Assembly (NCBI GenBank): GCA_902806095.1 | Contig: CADCVF010000025.1 | Location: 1-41,848 of the forward strand | Origin: an uncultured Rubrobacteraceae bacterium | GTDB taxonomy: Bacteria; Actinomycetota; Rubrobacteria; Rubrobacterales; Rubrobacteraceae | Direction of reading: 5' to 3' | Length of the DNA: 41,848 nucleotides | Part shown: positions 33,877 through 41,549 of the stretch, piece after piece | How positions within the stretch are numbered: the stretch's first letter is position 1 | Layout of the letters: the number at the start of each line of letters is the position of its first letter | Program-made: the position numbers and the translations under genes | Notes under the pieces: generated by a model | What the model was told of the DNA's origin: nothing | The model's database searches: none | The model's input: the letters and a program-made list of their open reading frames with translations, nothing else

Positions 33877-34863
33877 GTGGGCGGCAGAACAGACCAAGGT
33901 CGAAACGCCCGGAGCCTGAAGGCTTTCTCGTTCCTGCTGTTGGCTATTATGGTTGCCTCGCTACTGCTCGTGCACACGACCTCGTACGAGCCTGCGGTCT
34001 CCTACATTCTGCTCTATCTCGTCTCCTCCGTAGGCATTATCACGGCTACGGCCGTGGTCCCGTTGCTGCCGAACGAACACTTCACCACCGGTTTCTGCGG
34101 CTCGATCTACGCCCTGTACGCGGCCATCGTCGCCATGATGGTCTTCTTCTCGGGCGGGATATCGAGCGAGCTTTACGTTTTGTTATTCCCGCTGCTTCTT
34201 GCCTCGGCGCTGCACGGCTCGTGGCGGGTGGTGCTCGCGGTCCTAGTCGCCGTCCTTTTCTGCTACGGCCTGGCGATGCTGCCTGGTCTCCTCGAGGAAG
34301 GGACAGGGCAGGAGATAGCCTCCCTTGTCTTCTACAGGCTCACCGCTGTTGGCCTGACCGGCCTGTTCTTGATCTACGTAGCAAGGAGCGTGCTCCCTGC
34401 CGCGCTTGCCGAGGACTACGCGACTGACGCGGACCACTCATTGCTGCTCGAGCGGATCCAGGAGGAGCTCACGGCGCGCAGGGGGGTACCTGTCGCCGTA
34501 GTACTCGTCGACCCTGGAGGGGATATGGAGACCATGGATCTCCTTCTGAAGAGGGTGTACTCGCGCATCGGGGAACCTGTATTGCTCGGAGAAGGCAACC
34601 TCTTCGGGGTGGTCGTGAGCGGGGTAGACGATGGGGGGGTAGAGAGCGCGGCGCGGCGCGCCCTGGCCGCCGCGAGCTCGCTCGGTGCGAGGGATACCAG
34701 GGCGGGGGCGGCCGTCTACCCGCGCGACGCCCGTTCCGCGGAAGACCTCCTTATCGCCGCCGGGCGGGCGCTCGAGGCCGCTTTTGAGGTCGAGTCATCA
34801 AGCGTCATAGTCCTCGCCGGCAGAGGCGCTAGCCGGAGCGGCTTGTCAGCACGCTCCGGCTAG
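33877..34863 (+). CDS. Membrane protein with degenerate GGDEF-like domain
   Basis: This 328-residue protein has five to six membrane helices (residues about 16-180) and a C-terminal domain with the outline of a diguanylate cyclase: VAVVLVDPGGDMETMDLLLKR, then GEPVLLGEGNLFGVVVSG, and RAGAAVYPRDARSAEDLLIAAGRALE. The GG(D/E)EF signature is replaced by LGEGNLF, so catalysis is unlikely; it may bind a nucleotide or act as a signalling scaffold. The C-terminal 12 residues (ASRSGLSARSG) are encoded by an intergenic repeat that also supplies the stop codon. GTG follows a TATGAT hexamer and lacks a ribosome site. Confidence 0.75.
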   Translation: MGGRTDQGRNARSLKAFSFLLLAIMVASLLLVHTTSYEPAVSYILLYLVSSVGIITATAVVPLLPNEHFTTGFCGSIYALYAAIVAMMVFFSGGISSELYVLLFPLLLASALHGSWRVVLAVLVAVLFCYGLAMLPGLLEEGTGQEIASLVFYRLTAVGLTGLFLIYVARSVLPAALAEDYATDADHSLLLERIQEELTARRGVPVAVVLVDPGGDMETMDLLLKRVYSRIGEPVLLGEGNLFGVVVSGVDDGGVESAARRALAAASSLGARDTRAGAAVYPRDARSAEDLLIAAGRALEAAFEVESSSVIVLAGRGASRSGLSARSG

Positions 34864-35103
34864 CGCCAGCGCGCTTCGGCCTGCGGCCTTCGCTGGTCAG
34901 CATTTCAGCACGCTCCAGCCTTCGGCTTCCGCTTGTCAGCATTTCAGCAAGTCGTCCCGGAGCACCGCACCGGGCGTCGGACCCGACCACCGCCGGAAAC
35001 GGTTCCTCACGCGCCGCGAAGGGAGGCCGGAGCGGGAAAAGCTGACCAGCGAAGGCCGCAGGCCGAAGCGTGCTGACAAGCCTGCGAAGCAGGCGTGCTG
35101 AAA
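34838..35103. repeat. Modular palindromic intergenic repeat, locus I
   Basis: The longest copy. It runs from the end of the GGDEF-like gene almost to the pspA promoter. A 29-base segment (34872-34900, beginning GCTTCGGCCTGCGGCC) is repeated exactly inverted at 35041-35069, about 140 bases apart, enclosing GTCAGCATTTCAGCACGC-type words and a unique GC-rich stretch (34950-35040). The right end contains the same GCCTGCTTCGCAGGC hairpin as loci A and J. The 324 bases between genes here hold no other gene. Confidence 0.85.
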
Positions 35104-35120
35104 CCCCCGCCGGGGGTTTC
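35100..35120 (+). terminator. Perfect hairpin upstream of the pspA operon
   Basis: GAAACCCCC pairs with GGGGGTTTC around a 3-base loop. It closes the repeat block and ends 12 bases before the TATAAT of the pspA promoter. Confidence 0.55.
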
Positions 35121-35132
35121 ACGTACCGATGA

Positions 35133-35138
35133 TATAAT
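35133..35138 (+). promoter_or_regulatory. -10 box of the pspA/J-domain operon
   Basis: A perfect TATAAT, 49 bases before the pspA ATG. No -35 match is visible, because the terminator hairpin occupies that position; activator or alternative-sigma control is possible. Confidence 0.45.
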
Positions 35139-35187: not shown

Positions 35188-35940
35188 ATGGGAAGATTTA
35201 CAAGGGCTATTCGCGGTTTCTTCGGGAGGTTCCTCTCCGGGGTCGAGCAGCGCAACCCGGAGATACTGCTCGAGAACGCTGTCCAGGATGAACTCGAGAA
35301 CCTGAAGAAGCTGCAGGTCGCTGCGGCCCGCACGATGGCCTACGAGAAGATGCTCGCCAACGACGCTGTCACAAAGCAGAAGACCCTGGCCGTCAAGGAA
35401 CGTCAAGCCCGCGAGCTCGCGAGCAGGGGCCAGCGGGAGGCCGCTATCGAGGTCGTCCAGCAGAAGCAGGAGGCCCAGACGAGCCTCATCGATATCGAGA
35501 TGCGTCTCGAAGAAGCCCGCAAGAACTCCCAGGAGCTGGAGCAGGCCTTCCGCGACCAGGAGCGCCGTTACAACAACGTGGTGCGCGAACGTGCCGCGCT
35601 GATGGAGGAGCACCAGCGCTCCCGCGCCCTCAGGACGGCCAACGAGGCCCGCTCCAACATCTCCCTCTCCGACTCCTCCCGCGACCTCGAGAAGGCGCGG
35701 CAGTCGATCCGCCAGTCCTCGTATGAGGCGGAGGCCATCGGCGATCTCGGCACCAGCGATACCGAGCGCCAGATAGCGGCTGCCGAGATCGACATAAAGC
35801 GGCTCGATGCCGAACAGGAACTCGAGATGATGGAGGTCCAGATGGGCTTGCGGGAACCCGAACCTATCGAGGCCGCGCCGAACGAGGAAACGGTCGAGCC
35901 TCTGGCCGAAGAGACCGAAGAGGGCTCGCGTGGACAGTAG
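35188..35940 (+). CDS. pspA: PspA/Vipp1-like membrane-remodelling protein
   Basis: The 250-residue protein has the PspA/IM30 pattern: a short basic amphipathic helix (MGRFTRAIRGFFGRFL), then a long coiled coil from residue 27 to about 220 with PspA-type segments (NPEILLENAVQDELENLK, ARELASRGQREAAIEVVQQK), and an acidic disordered tail. PspA/Vipp1 proteins are bacterial relatives of ESCRT-III that polymerise on stressed membranes. ATG 35188 gives the amphipathic helix at the true N-terminus; the longer frame would start in the repeat. The ribosome site is a weak GGGGGTGG. It is the first gene of a four-gene operon, overlapping the next by 11 bases. Confidence 0.75.
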   Translation: MGRFTRAIRGFFGRFLSGVEQRNPEILLENAVQDELENLKKLQVAAARTMAYEKMLANDAVTKQKTLAVKERQARELASRGQREAAIEVVQQKQEAQTSLIDIEMRLEEARKNSQELEQAFRDQERRYNNVVRERAALMEEHQRSRALRTANEARSNISLSDSSRDLEKARQSIRQSSYEAEAIGDLGTSDTERQIAAAEIDIKRLDAEQELEMMEVQMGLREPEPIEAAPNEETVEPLAEETEEGSRGQ

Positions 35941-36721
35941 AAGGAACCTCTCGCGGCGGCTGATGGTGCGCCTCGCGCCTTTCGCTACCTTCGCAAGTCT
36001 CGGAACCTTCGCGGCCCTCGAAGCATCTTACCTCCTCGCTGGTCTGCTAGGCATCGGGGCCTTCGCCACAGGCAGACGACTCCTCGACAGGCGCGAGAAC
36101 GCGCGCAAAGAGCTTCTGAGCCAGGTTCGGCAGAACAGGGGAGAGCTCGGCCGGGTGGCGAGGGAGGATCGCATCGCGGCGTCGCAGATGAAGCGGCTCG
36201 TGGCCTTGCAGGACGGTCTACTGGAGAGTTGGGAGCTTCTGCCCGAGGAGTGCAGGCCGCTTCTAGGCGAAGACATCTTCACCATCGTCGGCGAGGTCGA
36301 GGGCGCCGCACGGCTGGCGCGGCGGAGGGCGGCGTTGAGGAGGCATCTGGAGAGCGTGGACCGGCGTGCGATCTCCGGACGCATAAAGGAATTGCAGAGG
36401 GATCTCGCGCGTTTGGAGCCCGACTCGCCTATGCGGGCGCCGTTCGAGAGCGCGCTCCAGGGCCGTCGCGGAGAGCTCGCGGGCTACGACGACGTGCTCG
36501 GCGGTATCAGCATGATCAATGCCCAGCTAGAGAGCGCCGAGAGCCTGCTTGGTAATCTGCGCGGAGAGCTACTGGCCCTTGATGGCAGCCTCGTCTCGGG
36601 GCCGCAAGACCCCGGCCTCGCGCGGCTCAAAGAGCGGATTGTTCTGTTCCGCCGCGGGCTCGATGAGGTGACGCGACGCGTCGAGACCCTACCCGCTACG
36701 GAAAGGATGTCGGCGAGATGA
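35930..36721 (+). CDS. Membrane-hairpin coiled-coil protein of the pspA operon
   Basis: This 263-residue protein of unknown family starts with a basic stretch, then a hydrophobic region at residues 12-48 that can form two membrane helices (APFATFASLGTFAALEASYL, LAGLLGIGAFATGRRLL), followed by about 215 cytoplasmic residues with strong coiled-coil character (NARKELLSQVRQNRGELGRV, ERIVLFRRGLDEVTRRVETL). It could anchor or receive the PspA-like polymer at the membrane, by analogy with PspB/PspC or Snf7-interacting proteins, but that is inference. It overlaps pspA by 11 bases and the next gene by ATGA. Confidence 0.75.
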   Translation: MDSRRNLSRRLMVRLAPFATFASLGTFAALEASYLLAGLLGIGAFATGRRLLDRRENARKELLSQVRQNRGELGRVAREDRIAASQMKRLVALQDGLLESWELLPEECRPLLGEDIFTIVGEVEGAARLARRRAALRRHLESVDRRAISGRIKELQRDLARLEPDSPMRAPFESALQGRRGELAGYDDVLGGISMINAQLESAESLLGNLRGELLALDGSLVSGPQDPGLARLKERIVLFRRGLDEVTRRVETLPATERMSAR

Positions 36722-37392
36722 ACGAGGAACATAGCACGACGCGGCAGAGCTTCTTCTCCAGGGTGTTCGCGGGGAGCACTGAGGGCGAGGGGACCGCTAT
36801 CTACTCCTCCGAGGAGGTCGGGGCAGGCACGCCGGGGATCGACGAGTCGGAGGGCCTGGCGGCGCACGGATTCACCGTCGAGCGGGCGGCCGAGGTCATC
36901 AGGAATCTCCCGCCAGAGGTGCCAAGACCGGCCGCCGTGCGCATCGTGCGTGGGACCCTCGAGGCCGCGGGTATAGACATAGCCGAGCTGGAGTCCTCGA
37001 CGAGGACCAGGGAGTCCAGGCTCAACTCCGAGATAGACCTCAGCGAGAATCGTATACAGCAACTCAAGGATGAGACCGAAGAGGTGATCCGGAGTCTCGA
37101 AGACGAGATACGCAAGGCACGCGAGGCCAGAGACTTCGGCGTCTCCGAAGAGGAGAGGAAGATCTCGTCCGCCGAGACGGGCCTCGACAATATAGATTTG
37201 GTGCGCGACTTCTTCGGCCTACCACAGGAAGACGCGGACGAGCCGCCCGCCGACCCCGCAGCCGGTGAAGAGACGCAGGTCATGGAGAGTGTGGAAGACG
37301 AGGGGGAAGACGACACCCAGGTTCTCCGCCGTCCAGGCCCGCTCTCGGACTCTGAGGACTACTGGGAAACCGGGGATAAAAAGGAACAGTGA
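36718..37392 (+). CDS. Acidic coiled-coil protein of the pspA operon
   Basis: A 224-residue protein of unknown family. Residues 51-90 form a small helical domain (FTVERAAEVIRNLPPEVPRP, then AAVRIVRGTLEAAG) and 95-140 a coiled coil (LSENRIQQLKDETEEVIRSL). The C-terminal 60 residues are acidic and disordered and contain two similar threonine sites, EETQVMES (T186) and DDTQVLRRPG (T200), that resemble phosphothreonine sites read by FHA domains. It overlaps its neighbours on both sides (ATGA and GTGA), so all four proteins are co-translated. Confidence 0.75.
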   Translation: MNEEHSTTRQSFFSRVFAGSTEGEGTAIYSSEEVGAGTPGIDESEGLAAHGFTVERAAEVIRNLPPEVPRPAAVRIVRGTLEAAGIDIAELESSTRTRESRLNSEIDLSENRIQQLKDETEEVIRSLEDEIRKAREARDFGVSEEERKISSAETGLDNIDLVRDFFGLPQEDADEPPADPAAGEETQVMESVEDEGEDDTQVLRRPGPLSDSEDYWETGDKKEQ

Positions 37393-37847
37393 GCATCCCG
37401 CGCCGCCTGGGGCGCCTCGCCCAGGGTTTCGTCTCGAGCCTGCAGGAAGACGAGCGCTTCCGCGAAAGAGTCCGTACCAGCCGCGAGCGTAGCGAGGCCC
37501 TCAGAGGAGCCTTCGAGGCAGCCTGGAAAGGCGCCTCCCAGGAGTGGCGTAGGGCGGAGGAGCGCCGCGCCGCGGAAGAGGCGGCCGCACAACGGACCTC
37601 GGGGTGGCGGTCTGCAACCACCACTTTCGTTCCCAGGAAATACCCGCCAAACGTCCTGGCCGCCTACGACAGGCTCGGCCTAGCCCCCGGTGCTTCCATG
37701 GAAGAGGCTGACAGGAAACGCAGGGACCTGGTCAAGCGCTTCCACCCGGATCGTTTCTCCGATCCCGAAAAGCGGGTCCGTGCCGAGCGCGTCACCGCAG
37801 AGATCAACGCCGCCCACGACGCCATAGAGCGGTTTGAGGAAGGCTAG
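37389..37847 (+). CDS. J-domain (DnaJ-like) co-chaperone of the pspA operon
   Basis: This 152-residue protein has a charged helical N-terminal half (residues 15-70) and a C-terminal J domain at about 93-148 (YDRLGLAPGASMEEADRKRR, then DLVKRFHPDRF) with the HPD motif at 119-121 that stimulates Hsp70. Zinc-finger and G/F regions of full DnaJ are absent, so it is a type III J protein whose N-terminus probably chooses the client. The GTG start overlaps the previous stop (GTGA), with AAGGA upstream. In chloroplasts the J protein CDJ2 with Hsp70 assembles and disassembles Vipp1, so the operon suggests an equivalent bacterial arrangement. Confidence 0.88.
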   Translation: MSIPRRLGRLAQGFVSSLQEDERFRERVRTSRERSEALRGAFEAAWKGASQEWRRAEERRAAEEAAAQRTSGWRSATTTFVPRKYPPNVLAAYDRLGLAPGASMEEADRKRRDLVKRFHPDRFSDPEKRVRAERVTAEINAAHDAIERFEEG

Positions 37848-37862: not shown

Positions 37863-37986
37863 GCATTTCAGCACGCCTGCTTCGCAGGCTTGTCAGCACG
37901 CGCCCTGACGGGCGCTTGTCAGCATTTCAGCTTTCGTGTGCACAAGCCCTGGTTGACAAGGCGGCGCAGCCGCCGTGCTGACTTGC
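37863..37986. repeat. Modular palindromic intergenic repeat, locus J
   Basis: It lies between the convergent J-domain and sortase genes. The first 39 bases equal the start of locus A. A CGCCCTGACGGGCG hairpin, GCTTGTCAGCATTTCAGC and a GGCGGCGCAGCCGCC hairpin follow, and the right end reads GTGCTGACTTGC, three bases before the sortase stop. Confidence 0.85.
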
Positions 37987-38655: not shown

Positions 38656-39498
38656 ATGATACGCGTGAAGATAGATGACCTGATCGAAGCCTTCGCAGCC
38701 CATCTCGCAGACGACCCCGGCACGAGCCCACGCACCTCCGAGTTCTACGTGGCCGACCTTCGCGAGTTCGCCCGTTTCCTCGAAGAGAGGGACGTAAGCA
38801 GGGTCGAGGACGTGGGCGTCGGCGCCGTGATGGAGTTCCGCAACTATCTCCTCGAAGGCAACCGCAAGCGCTTCACCGTGTACCGTAAGGACGCCGCCGT
38901 AAGAAGGTTCCTCGATTGGGCCCGTACCTCCACAGATGCCGACATAGACTTCGACCCCATCGAACCGATGCACCAGCCACTCGACCAGCGGATAGTCTTT
39001 CTTGAAGAAGATGAGGTTGACCAGCTCCTCTCCTTCCCCCTGAACACCCGCGACGACGCCCGTGACGCTGCGGTCGTAAGGCTCATGCTCGACACGGGGG
39101 TGACGGTGAGCGAGATCCGCGCACTCCTCGAGAGCGACGTCGACCTCGAAGCCGCCCAGGCACACCTCGGCGGTCCCGGCTCCCACCTCGCCCCTCGCGT
39201 GCGGCGCCTCTCTAGTGCGACGGTAGAGGTTGTCCACCACTACCTAAGCATGCGCGAGGACAAGACACCGGAGCTGATCGTGGCCCGCGCCGCCCGTCCC
39301 GTTACGACCTCGAAGACGTTGCAAAACGCCATCTGGAAACGCTGTGACCAGGTCGGAATGTGGCGTGTCTCCCCGATGAACCTCCGCCACACCTTCGCCA
39401 TAAGGTTGCTGCGCAGCGGTGCAAGCCTGGGCGAGCTCAGAGAAGCCCTCGGCGTCCGCGATACCTCTAACATAGGGGTGTACAAGAAGTTCGTTTGA
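38656..39498 (+). CDS. Tyrosine-recombinase-fold protein, catalytically degenerate
   Basis: This 280-residue protein has a SAM-like N-terminal core-binding domain (residues 8-95) and a C-terminal XerC/XerD-like catalytic fold (MLDTGVTVSEIRALLESDVD, LRHTFAIRLLRSGASLGELR, then YKKF). Of the usual R-K-H-R-H/W-Y set, only R244 (LRH) and Y276 are clear. The first arginine is replaced by T150 in TGVTVSE, the histidine before LR by methionine or asparagine, and the LGH histidine by valine. It probably binds DNA without recombining it. ATG 38656 overlaps a TAGAAT hexamer; GTG at 38665, seven bases after it, is the alternative start. Confidence 0.75.
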   Translation: MIRVKIDDLIEAFAAHLADDPGTSPRTSEFYVADLREFARFLEERDVSRVEDVGVGAVMEFRNYLLEGNRKRFTVYRKDAAVRRFLDWARTSTDADIDFDPIEPMHQPLDQRIVFLEEDEVDQLLSFPLNTRDDARDAAVVRLMLDTGVTVSEIRALLESDVDLEAAQAHLGGPGSHLAPRVRRLSSATVEVVHHYLSMREDKTPELIVARAARPVTTSKTLQNAIWKRCDQVGMWRVSPMNLRHTFAIRLLRSGASLGELREALGVRDTSNIGVYKKFV

Positions 39499-39686: not shown

Positions 39687-41549
39687 ATGGCATCCGAGGG
39701 TTCGAGCACGCAACAGGCCCAGCAGGGGGCACAGCCGTCCGAGTCTCAGCAAGACGCCCGGCATGAGCAGAACCTGACGGAACAGGAGAGTGCGGAAATG
39801 CGCCAGGAAATGGCGGAAGTAGAGGACAACGCCCCTGTTCGGAAGAACGACCCCCGCACCTCCGTCCAGAAGACCGAAGAATACCGCTTCGCGAGCAACA
39901 TACCCGGCGGCCAGACGATCCCCGAGAAGGAGTACGCGGATTACACCCTCGAGTACGACGAGGACGACGCCGTGATGAACGGTAAGATCCCCGACGTGCT
40001 TCTCGACGTGCCCGTGGTCAAGGTGGATGAGATCAACTTCGAGCTCAACGACTTGCGGGCGAAGGTAAACCTCTACGCAAAAGTGCTCGACCTGGTCGAA
40101 CTGTCAGTGGGGGTCGACGCTTACCTCGGCAGGGTCAAGCTCGTGATAAAGGGCGTCGAAGCCCAGGCGCTCCTGAAAGTCAGGCTCGACAACGTGACTG
40201 CCATCATCGACAGGGTACTTACGACCATAGACCGCAACCCGCAGATCGTCGAGAAGCTGGTCGAGAGTGTCGGCTCCGCCGTAGAAGACGTAGGCTCCGG
40301 CGCTGGCTCGGCCCTGGAGGACGTTGGCGAGGGCGCCGGCGAGCTTGTAGGCGACGGCCTCAACTCCGCTGTCGAGGACATCGGCTCCGGTGCGGGAGAC
40401 CTAGTCGGTGAGGGAGCTAACCAGGCAGTCGCGGATATCGGCTCGGGCACCGGATCTGCCGTAGAGGATGTCGGCGAGGGCACGGGCCAGCTGGTGGGCG
40501 AAGGGGCCAACCAGGCCGTCGCGGATATCGGCTCGGGTGCCGGCTCCGCCGTGGAAGACGTTGGTTCGGGCGCGGGTTCCGCAGTCGAAGACGTAGGTCA
40601 GGGAGCTGGCTCGGCTGTCGAAGACGTCGGCTCAGGCGCCGGTTCTGCTGTCGAGGACGTGGGTGAAGGCGCTGGAGAGGCTGTCGAGAGTACAGGTTCC
40701 GCAGTCGAAGACGTAGGTCAGGGCGCGGGATCTGCGGTCGAGGATGTTGGTTCTGGTGCCGGTGAAGCCGTCGAAAGCACGGGTGAAGCCGTGGAAGACG
40801 TAGGCTCAGGCGCCGGTGAAGCCGTAGAGAGTACGGGCGAGGCTGTGGAGGATGTGGGCTCTGGGGCTCAATCAGCGGTGGAAGATGTCGGTGAGGGCGC
40901 CGGTCAGGCTACCCAACAAGTCGGCGAAGGGGCCGGGCAGGCCGCGGGCGAAGTCGGGCATGGAGCCGGACAAGCAGCGGGTGAAGTGGGTGAAGGTGCT
41001 GGCCAGGCGGCCCAGGAAGCCGGCAAGGGTGCAGGGCAGGCCACCGGAGCCGTTGGCGAAGGCGCAGGCCAGGCAGCTCAGGAGGTTGGCGAGGGCGCGA
41101 GCGAGGCAGCCCAGGGAGTCGGAGATACGGCAGGCCAGGCAGCCGAAGGCGTGGGTGATGTTGCCGGGCAGGCCACGGAACGAGCGGGCGAAGCAGCGCA
41201 GGGAGCCCAAGATGCAGGAGATGCCGCGGGCCAGCCCTCCGACGAAGCCGCGAGTGACGACGGAGATCAGGCCCAACCCGACGGTGTGATCGCCGAGAAC
41301 GCCAACGGAGATAGCCGGACCATACAGCGCATGGTCGACGAGTTGGGGGACATCATCGAGACCACCATGAACGAGAACGGCGAGATAGTGGGAGAAGAAC
41401 TCGTCGGCAACGTTGGCAGCCTGCCGGCGGAGGAAGAATACGTGGACGAAGAGGGTCGGGTCGTAAGCCGGGTGAGAGACGAGTTGGGGAGTGCCTTCGA
41501 GCGGCTAGTCGACGACGAAGGTAACATGGTCGGCGTGAGGGCTGTTTGA
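39687..41549 (+). CDS. Long 11-residue-repeat (LEA-like) protein
   Basis: The 620-residue protein has four parts. Residues 1-95 are polar and disordered. Residues 100-195 form a conserved-looking domain (VPVVKVDEINFELNDLRAKV, VEAQALLKVRLDNVTAIIDR) also remembered in other actinobacteria without known function. Residues 196-520 hold about thirty 11-residue units of the type SAVEDVGSGAG or QAAQEVGEGAG, which as 11/3 helices would be amphipathic like group 3 LEA proteins, apolipoproteins or synuclein. Residues 530-620 carry DELG/DEEG units. No signal peptide. A role in membrane coating or desiccation tolerance is inferred. It has its own promoter and precedes a partner gene. Confidence 0.7.
   Translation: MASEGSSTQQAQQGAQPSESQQDARHEQNLTEQESAEMRQEMAEVEDNAPVRKNDPRTSVQKTEEYRFASNIPGGQTIPEKEYADYTLEYDEDDAVMNGKIPDVLLDVPVVKVDEINFELNDLRAKVNLYAKVLDLVELSVGVDAYLGRVKLVIKGVEAQALLKVRLDNVTAIIDRVLTTIDRNPQIVEKLVESVGSAVEDVGSGAGSALEDVGEGAGELVGDGLNSAVEDIGSGAGDLVGEGANQAVADIGSGTGSAVEDVGEGTGQLVGEGANQAVADIGSGAGSAVEDVGSGAGSAVEDVGQGAGSAVEDVGSGAGSAVEDVGEGAGEAVESTGSAVEDVGQGAGSAVEDVGSGAGEAVESTGEAVEDVGSGAGEAVESTGEAVEDVGSGAQSAVEDVGEGAGQATQQVGEGAGQAAGEVGHGAGQAAGEVGEGAGQAAQEAGKGAGQATGAVGEGAGQAAQEVGEGASEAAQGVGDTAGQAAEGVGDVAGQATERAGEAAQGAQDAGDAAGQPSDEAASDDGDQAQPDGVIAENANGDSRTIQRMVDELGDIIETTMNENGEIVGEELVGNVGSLPAEEEYVDEEGRVVSRVRDELGSAFERLVDDEGNMVGVRAV
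40264..41230 (+). repeat. Tandem 33-base coding repeats
   Basis: About thirty degenerate copies of a 33-base unit encode the 11-residue repeats of the preceding protein. Codon third positions vary between copies, so selection acts on the protein pattern. Units lacking residues (EAVESTG) show slippage in steps of codons. Confidence 0.8.

Follow-up and report, generated by a model that had tools for sequence, protein, structure and literature searches.

A Rubrobacteraceae-specific Psp operon that carries its own J-domain co-chaperone

A stretch of 41,848 nt from an uncultured Rubrobacteraceae bacterium (GCA_902806095.1, contig CADCVF010000025.1, positions 1-41,848; the whole stretch is hereafter called the window), whose close relatives in reference collections are Rubrobacter genomes, was found to contain four successively overlapping genes on its forward strand that constitute a Rubrobacteraceae-specific envelope-stress Psp operon with a dedicated J-domain co-chaperone. 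Gene 1 encodes a PspA, genes 2 and 3 encode helical proteins and gene 4 encodes the J protein (Table 1). The mechanism that we regard as best, and to which we give about an even chance, is that the J protein and DnaK would remodel the PspA polymer as CDJ2 and HSP70B do VIPP1.

Gene order and its conservation

The four open reading frames overlap by 11, 4 and 4 nt, which confirms the coupled genes that a first-pass annotation had placed at 35188-37847. Across relatives the gene 2-3 and gene 3-4 junctions nearly always show a 4-nt overlap, and this near constancy is a signature of coupled translation. The order 1-2-3-4 on one strand was observed in all 20 relative loci fetched with tblastn whose contigs reached far enough; where a locus missed a gene, the contig ended there. 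The same order was evident by coordinates in eight more genomes (G010, G011, G012, G014, G015, G016, G025 and G027), and with the window included it was present in at least 29 Rubrobacteraceae genomes with zero exceptions. Because the order is identical in every Rubrobacteraceae locus that reaches far enough, the operon arrangement is well beyond chance, and the linkage in relatives on which the first-pass annotation had staked its reading was upheld. A fused gene 2-gene 3 reading frame in one relative (L043:6786-8210) lacks the 3' end of gene 2 and the 5' end of gene 3; it comes from a single metagenome bin, is perhaps an assembly or deletion artefact and was not used as evidence.

Conservation was sampled in Actinomycetota. 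A gene 2 profile run against 346 genomes returned nothing convincing outside Rubrobacteraceae (one weak partial match, E=7.6e-5, 69 residues), nor did a gene 3 profile run against 296 genomes, and outside the family the gene 4 profile met J domains only. A J-domain hidden Markov model, run with positive controls, found no J domain in stretches reaching 1.5 kb to about 5 kb to either side of 70 pspA genes from other families of the phylum. The linkage of pspA to a J protein gene is fixed within Rubrobacteraceae and was not seen outside the family in the Actinomycetota sampled. Genes 1 and 4 gave no match to plasmids.

The operon products

Gene 1 was matched by PF04012 (PspA_IM30) with 47.6 bits (cut-off 33.9) over amino acids 4-216 and profile positions 6-215 of 220, and it is the sole PF04012 member in this genome. 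Its family profile matched the solved structures of the cyanobacterial PspA sll0617 (7o3w, E=2.8e-5) and Vipp1 (E=2e-4) in an alignment spanning approximately 200 residues. Judged by sequence only, gene 1 appears to share the alpha1-alpha2/3 hairpin core of ESCRT-III seen in these structures. The alpha-0 helix at its N-terminus, an 18-mer of net charge +3, has a hydrophobic moment of 0.63 that is reached by 0.07% of shuffles of the same 18-mer, and the first-pass description of a PspA-like protein with an amphipathic N-terminus was accordingly correct. PF04012 was present in 105 of 246 Actinomycetota genomes, and the Rubrobacteraceae gene 1 profile reached no other PspA at E <= 1e-5 among the 296 sampled. 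From these comparisons the protein is a divergent PspA member.

The J protein has the architecture of the class III type, with an N-terminal part, a variable linker and a terminal J domain. Gene 4 itself scored 25.1 bits against PF00226, under the Pfam cut-off of 27.8; PF00226 was matched at E <= 0.01 by 20 of 21 gene 4 orthologues, and the family profile matched solved J domains with E = 3e-4. The HPD motif was invariant in all 21 orthologues, with flanking residues invariant or nearly so. The J domain, which the first-pass annotation had placed at the C-terminus with its HPD intact, looks functional. Among the best NCBIfam matches of gene 4 were DjlA and TopJ, far below cut-off. It resembles DjlA and the class III (DNAJC) proteins in a presumed membrane-associated N-terminus, a C-terminal J domain and the absence of G/F and zinc-finger parts. 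DjlA has a transmembrane (TM) helix and a TerB domain, whereas gene 4 has no more than an amphipathic helix and a helical linker.

This helix, at amino acids 3-20 (IPRRLGRLAQGFVSSLQE), had escaped the first-pass annotation; it is among the best-conserved parts of the J protein, and the start MSIPRRLGRLARGF is nearly invariant. It carries a net charge of +2 and its hydrophobic moment of 0.61, reached by 0.02% of shuffles of the same 18-mer, is practically equal to that of PspA alpha-0. Since the two N-termini are equally amphipathic, the J protein is probably membrane-bound through its own helix, on the membrane surface that PspA would occupy; because it carries this helix, genes 2 and 3 may not be needed as adaptors. 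The genome encodes one full-length Hsp70 (DnaK) and five J-domain proteins, gene 4 included.

Gene 2 contains two hydrophobic stretches of moderate strength within about amino acids 11-50 (mean Kyte-Doolittle 1.57 and 1.33), followed by helices. Its AlphaFold2 model (predicted local distance difference test score 78) showed a helical body and low confidence in the hairpin region. Foldseek returned no significant fold match for this model in the PDB; a BAR-like fold was considered and rejected, as the top matches, BAR and eisosome proteins, were not significant (E>=0.03, TM-scores near 0.25). In build, gene 2 is like PspM, being directly 3' of pspA and having two hydrophobic N-terminal segments (weaker in gene 2), a helical remainder and a length of roughly 270 amino acids. 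The two are not detectably homologous, in that hhalign gave a probability of 2.6-3.6% against a PspM profile from seven actinobacterial loci, like unrelated helical controls (gene 4: 2.1%). By these measures gene 2 is a PspM analogue in position and build, and its membership of the PspM family was not supported.

Gene 3 was modelled by AlphaFold2 with a long helix at amino acids 88-166 (79 residues) and an acidic disordered tail, and its model had no significant structural neighbour in the PDB. The tail holds a conserved DETQV / DDTQVL pair. We take this DxTQV pattern to resemble the phospho-threonine sites of kinase/FHA systems; it is a possible motif of this kind and may have the corresponding function. 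The natures that the first-pass annotation had assigned to genes 2 and 3 agree with a moderate hydrophobic hairpin and helices in the one and with acidity and a long helix in the other, and the structure predictions that it had proposed, carried out for both with AlphaFold2, placed neither protein in a known fold.

Promoter region and flanking features

The DNA 5' of pspA is poorly conserved with the exception of two promoter elements, which are an addition to the first-pass annotation. A motif GAA(A/C)C-N14..19-CGTA was found in 21 of 26 orthologous upstream regions, against 1.2% expected by Markov shuffles, although these regions are related and the motif is near the general consensus of extracytoplasmic function (ECF) sigma factors. 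It takes the form of a -35 GAAAC and a -10 CGT(A) at a spacing of N16/17. TATAAT was present 46-60 nt 5' of the pspA start in all 26 regions (expected 1.2%), mostly as an extended -10 (TGnTATAAT). No HAIR or CIRCE heat-shock operators were found in the DNA 5' of pspA. Under envelope stress the operon is probably transcribed from an ECF-sigma promoter as well. The ECF-like element fits PspA biology, since clgR of M. tuberculosis, which is cotranscribed with the psp genes, belongs to the SigE regulon (PMC10027907).

In locus L238 (G000:C11, about 33.4-35.3 kb) an ECF sigma gene is followed by genes for a zinc-finger anti-sigma factor and a membrane-anchored bactofilin-like protein, and has GGAAACT-N16-CGTA directly 5' of it. 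One such match among 18 sigma loci is approximately at chance level, and this sigma factor is a candidate only, weakly assigned, for the regulator of the operon. A further GAAACC-N16-CGTA was observed in 25 of 30 relatives between a DUF697 (YcjF-like) gene (L193:664-1416, reverse strand, and L233) and the divergent gene for a primary-type (rpoD-like) sigma factor. It was rejected as independent support on account of confounding, as the opposite-strand promoter of the sigma gene appears to overlap the CGTAATATA block. In Yersinia, ycjXF genes are part of the psp operon (PMC3467454).

Throughout the family, pspA is preceded by a gene (33877-34863 in the window) for a membrane protein with a hydrophobic N-terminal half and a soluble C-terminal part; the latter resembles a degenerate GGDEF domain by eye. 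The protein has no Pfam match and is possibly a sensor. Because its distance to pspA varies (41-668 nt) and the pspA promoter elements lie in between, this gene is probably a separate transcription unit. Both flanks of the operon (34840-35110 and 37863-37935) contain intergenic repeats around TGTCAGCAYG, resembling repetitive extragenic palindromic elements, with inverted arms of 26-46 nt and 8 copies in the window against 0.18 expected. Farther downstream, 39687-41549 encodes a 620-residue protein in which near-repeats (GSAVEDVGSGAG / GEGAGQAAGEVG) follow one another over a long stretch, as in late embryogenesis abundant or phasin-type desiccation proteins, and its gene is linked in several relatives to the tyrosine recombinase gene at 38656-39498.

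Table 1. Coordinates of the operon genes, protein segments and promoter elements in the window (aa, amino acids).
Feature	Position	Strand	Basis
ECF-sigma-like promoter element TGAAACC-N16-CGTA	35099..35125	+	GAA(A/C)C-N14..19-CGTA motif conserved upstream
Extended -10 TGATATAAT, housekeeping-type promoter	35130..35138	+	TATAAT conserved upstream
Gene 1, PspA/IM30 family, 250 aa (bacterial ESCRT-III relative)	35188..35940	+	PF04012 match; solved PspA/Vipp1 profile match
PspA alpha-0 amphipathic helix, aa 3-20, RFTRAIRGFFGRFLSGVE	35194..35247	+	Hydrophobic moment; conserved in 22/22 orthologues
Gene 2, 263 aa, N-terminal two-segment hydrophobic hairpin, then alpha-helical bundle; positional analogue of PspM	35930..36721	+	Hydropathy; AlphaFold2
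Putative membrane hairpin of gene 2, aa 11-50	35960..36079	+	Mean Kyte-Doolittle over 17 aa 1.57 and 1.33; model of low confidence there
Gene 3, 224 aa, acidic; small helical N-terminal part, 79-residue helix, disordered tail	36718..37392	+	AlphaFold2; conserved family A2
Conserved D-D-T of DDTQVLR in the acidic tail of gene 3	37309..37317	+	D198 and T200 invariant in 19 sequences, tail otherwise variable
Gene 4, 152 aa, C-terminal J domain (class III type)	37389..37847	+	PF00226; profile against solved J domains
J protein N-terminal amphipathic helix, aa 3-20, IPRRLGRLAQGFVSSLQE	37395..37448	+	Moment 0.61; near-invariant start MSIPRRLGRLARGF
J domain, aa 92-147	37662..37829	+	HPD, aa 119-121, at 37743-37751

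A proposed role for the J protein and DnaK at the PspA polymer

The Chlamydomonas J protein CDJ2 hands VIPP1 over to HSP70B, and together with CGE1 these two catalyse the assembly as well as the disassembly of VIPP1 polymers, processes in which E. coli DnaK can replace HSP70B (PMC10602608, PMC6882379). The chloroplast precedent invoked in the first-pass annotation is real, and it covers ATP-dependent assembly in addition to the disassembly named there (PMC10602608, PMC6882379). Vipp1 of Synechocystis co-purifies with DnaK2 and DnaK3 (PMC4297356). The Rubrobacteraceae operon is like the VIPP1-CDJ2-HSP70B-CGE1 system in combining a PspA/ESCRT-III polymer with a specialised J protein for the recruitment of Hsp70; the chloroplast system differs in that it is not an operon, that CDJ2 is not known to be kin to gene 4 outside the J domain, and that the interaction is proven in Chlamydomonas, whereas we infer it for the operon. 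We know of no counterpart of genes 2 and 3 in the chloroplast system. The operon contains no gene for an AAA+ partner, and how PspA homologues lacking an associated AAA ATPase regulate assembly is given as unknown in a survey (PMC11237479).

Under the proposed mechanism, transcription would start from the housekeeping-type promoter, to which the ECF-sigma promoter probably adds under envelope stress. PspA would bind damaged membrane via its alpha-0 helix and polymerise there. The gene 2 protein could be an integral-membrane anchor or sensor through its hairpin, in the position of PspM, with the gene 3 protein serving as an acidic adaptor or as a regulator. The J protein, held on the same membrane by its amphipathic helix, would present PspA, or PspA bound to the gene 2 or gene 3 protein, to DnaK, which with ATP would assemble the PspA polymer or take it apart, a role like that of Vps4 for ESCRT-III and of CDJ2-HSP70B for VIPP1. 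It is conceivable, at slightly less than an even chance, that the operon constitutes a second, Hsp70-based answer to Vps4, in which a bacterial ESCRT-III (PspA) is inherited as a four-gene unit with a membrane-bound J protein that directs DnaK to the polymer.

This remodelling is favoured by the PspA membership of gene 1, the fixed overlapping order, the invariant HPD in an otherwise well-formed J domain, the full-length DnaK, the amphipathic N-terminus of the J protein and the conserved promoter. Several observations weigh against it. PspA-bearing bacteria mostly do without a linked J protein, four other J-domain proteins in the genome could each serve PspA, and the conservation is confined to one family, where descent can preserve gene order, with no independent lineage in the sampled Actinomycetota showing the PspA-J pairing. 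Neither linkage nor domain content proves PspA to be the client of the J protein. The self-contained repair module with a dedicated J protein, as the first-pass annotation had put it, is supported in part, with respect to family, linkage, J domain, DnaK and precedent; the contact of the J protein with PspA and the disassembly step are putative.

The main rival to PspA remodelling is a co-regulated general membrane J protein. Gene 4 could be a DjlA-like co-chaperone that guides DnaK to damaged membrane proteins where PspA marks the site, with PspA not a client and the shared operon reflecting a common stress. The C-terminal J domain behind a probably membrane-binding N-terminus, the presence of DjlA and TopJ among the best, if far sub-threshold, NCBIfam matches and the ECF-like promoter element are all consistent with this. 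A strict overlapping four-gene order in every relative nevertheless exceeds what co-regulation needs, and VIPP1 polymers are a known target of DnaK; we consider this alternative rather unlikely.

Another explanation is that the locus is an ordinary actinobacterial Psp operon of PspA and a PspM-like membrane protein, and that genes 3 and 4 are passengers specific to the family that do not contribute directly to the work of PspA. Mycobacteria and allied genera carry, directly 3' of pspA, a gene for a two-TM helical protein of gene 2-like length, and the survey names this following coiled-coil gene pspM (PMC11237479). The clgR-pspA-pspM(Rv2743c)-pspN operon, with clgR under the ECF factor SigE, resembles that of the window in that the gene next to pspA on its 3' side encodes a two-TM helical protein of roughly 270 residues; it differs in having neither a J protein nor a gene 3 counterpart, and the Rubrobacteraceae operon in having no ClgR. 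The restriction of genes 2-4 to Rubrobacteraceae also suits passengers, whereas a fixed order, coupled translation and an invariant catalytic motif over at least 29 genomes would be unexpected for them and gene 2 has no detectable relation to PspM. We judge this explanation improbable.

In M. tuberculosis, ClgR is set free by PspA upon surface stress, and PspA also binds Rv2743c and Rv2742c, which are surface-associated (PMC10027907). By comparison with this PspA-held ClgR, PspA of the operon could be a titrated signal, with the J protein and DnaK as feedback regulators that turn the operon on or off by acting on the gene 2 or gene 3 protein or on an anti-sigma/sigma pair. An ECF-like element lies both 5' of the operon and 5' of the ECF sigma gene in L238, whose next gene encodes the zinc-finger anti-sigma factor, and the conserved DxTQV motif in the disordered tail of gene 3 is presumably as in kinase/FHA substrates. 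Against these stand the lack of a transcription factor gene in the operon and the closeness of the element to the general ECF consensus, one match among 18 sigma loci being near chance, and we regard such feedback as very unlikely.

With regard to known Psp systems, two wide neighbourhood surveys report band-7, CesT/Tir, AAA+, Toastrack, PspC and other partners (PMC11237479, PMC9239133), and the words DnaJ and Rubrobacter are absent from the main text of both. The B. subtilis pspA-ydjGHI operon and pspA operons linked to band-7, CesT/Tir or AAA+ genes likewise join pspA to membrane or chaperone-like partners; they differ in that those partners are YdjGHI, band-7, CesT/Tir, TPM or AAA+ proteins. 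No description of a pspA-dnaJ operon was found in the open literature, where one paper naming both Rubrobacter and PspA uses PspA merely as a Thermoleophilia sequence marker. The composition had been put forward as undescribed; this stands for the J protein and gene 3, which are its new part, and not for pspA followed by a two-TM coiled-coil gene (pspM/Rv2743c), as the Psp operon kind is known.

A J protein fixed in the pspA operon across the whole family is a concrete candidate for PspA polymer recycling without a linked AAA+ ATPase. PspA, two helper proteins, the J protein, DnaK and GrpE would make up a defined set of parts. If true, PspA remodelling by the J protein with DnaK would connect what has been found for VIPP1 and HSP70 in chloroplasts with a membrane-repair system of bacteria, and the placement of PspA beside its own Hsp70 helper suggests a route by which the polymer may be taken down in bacteria that have no dedicated motor.

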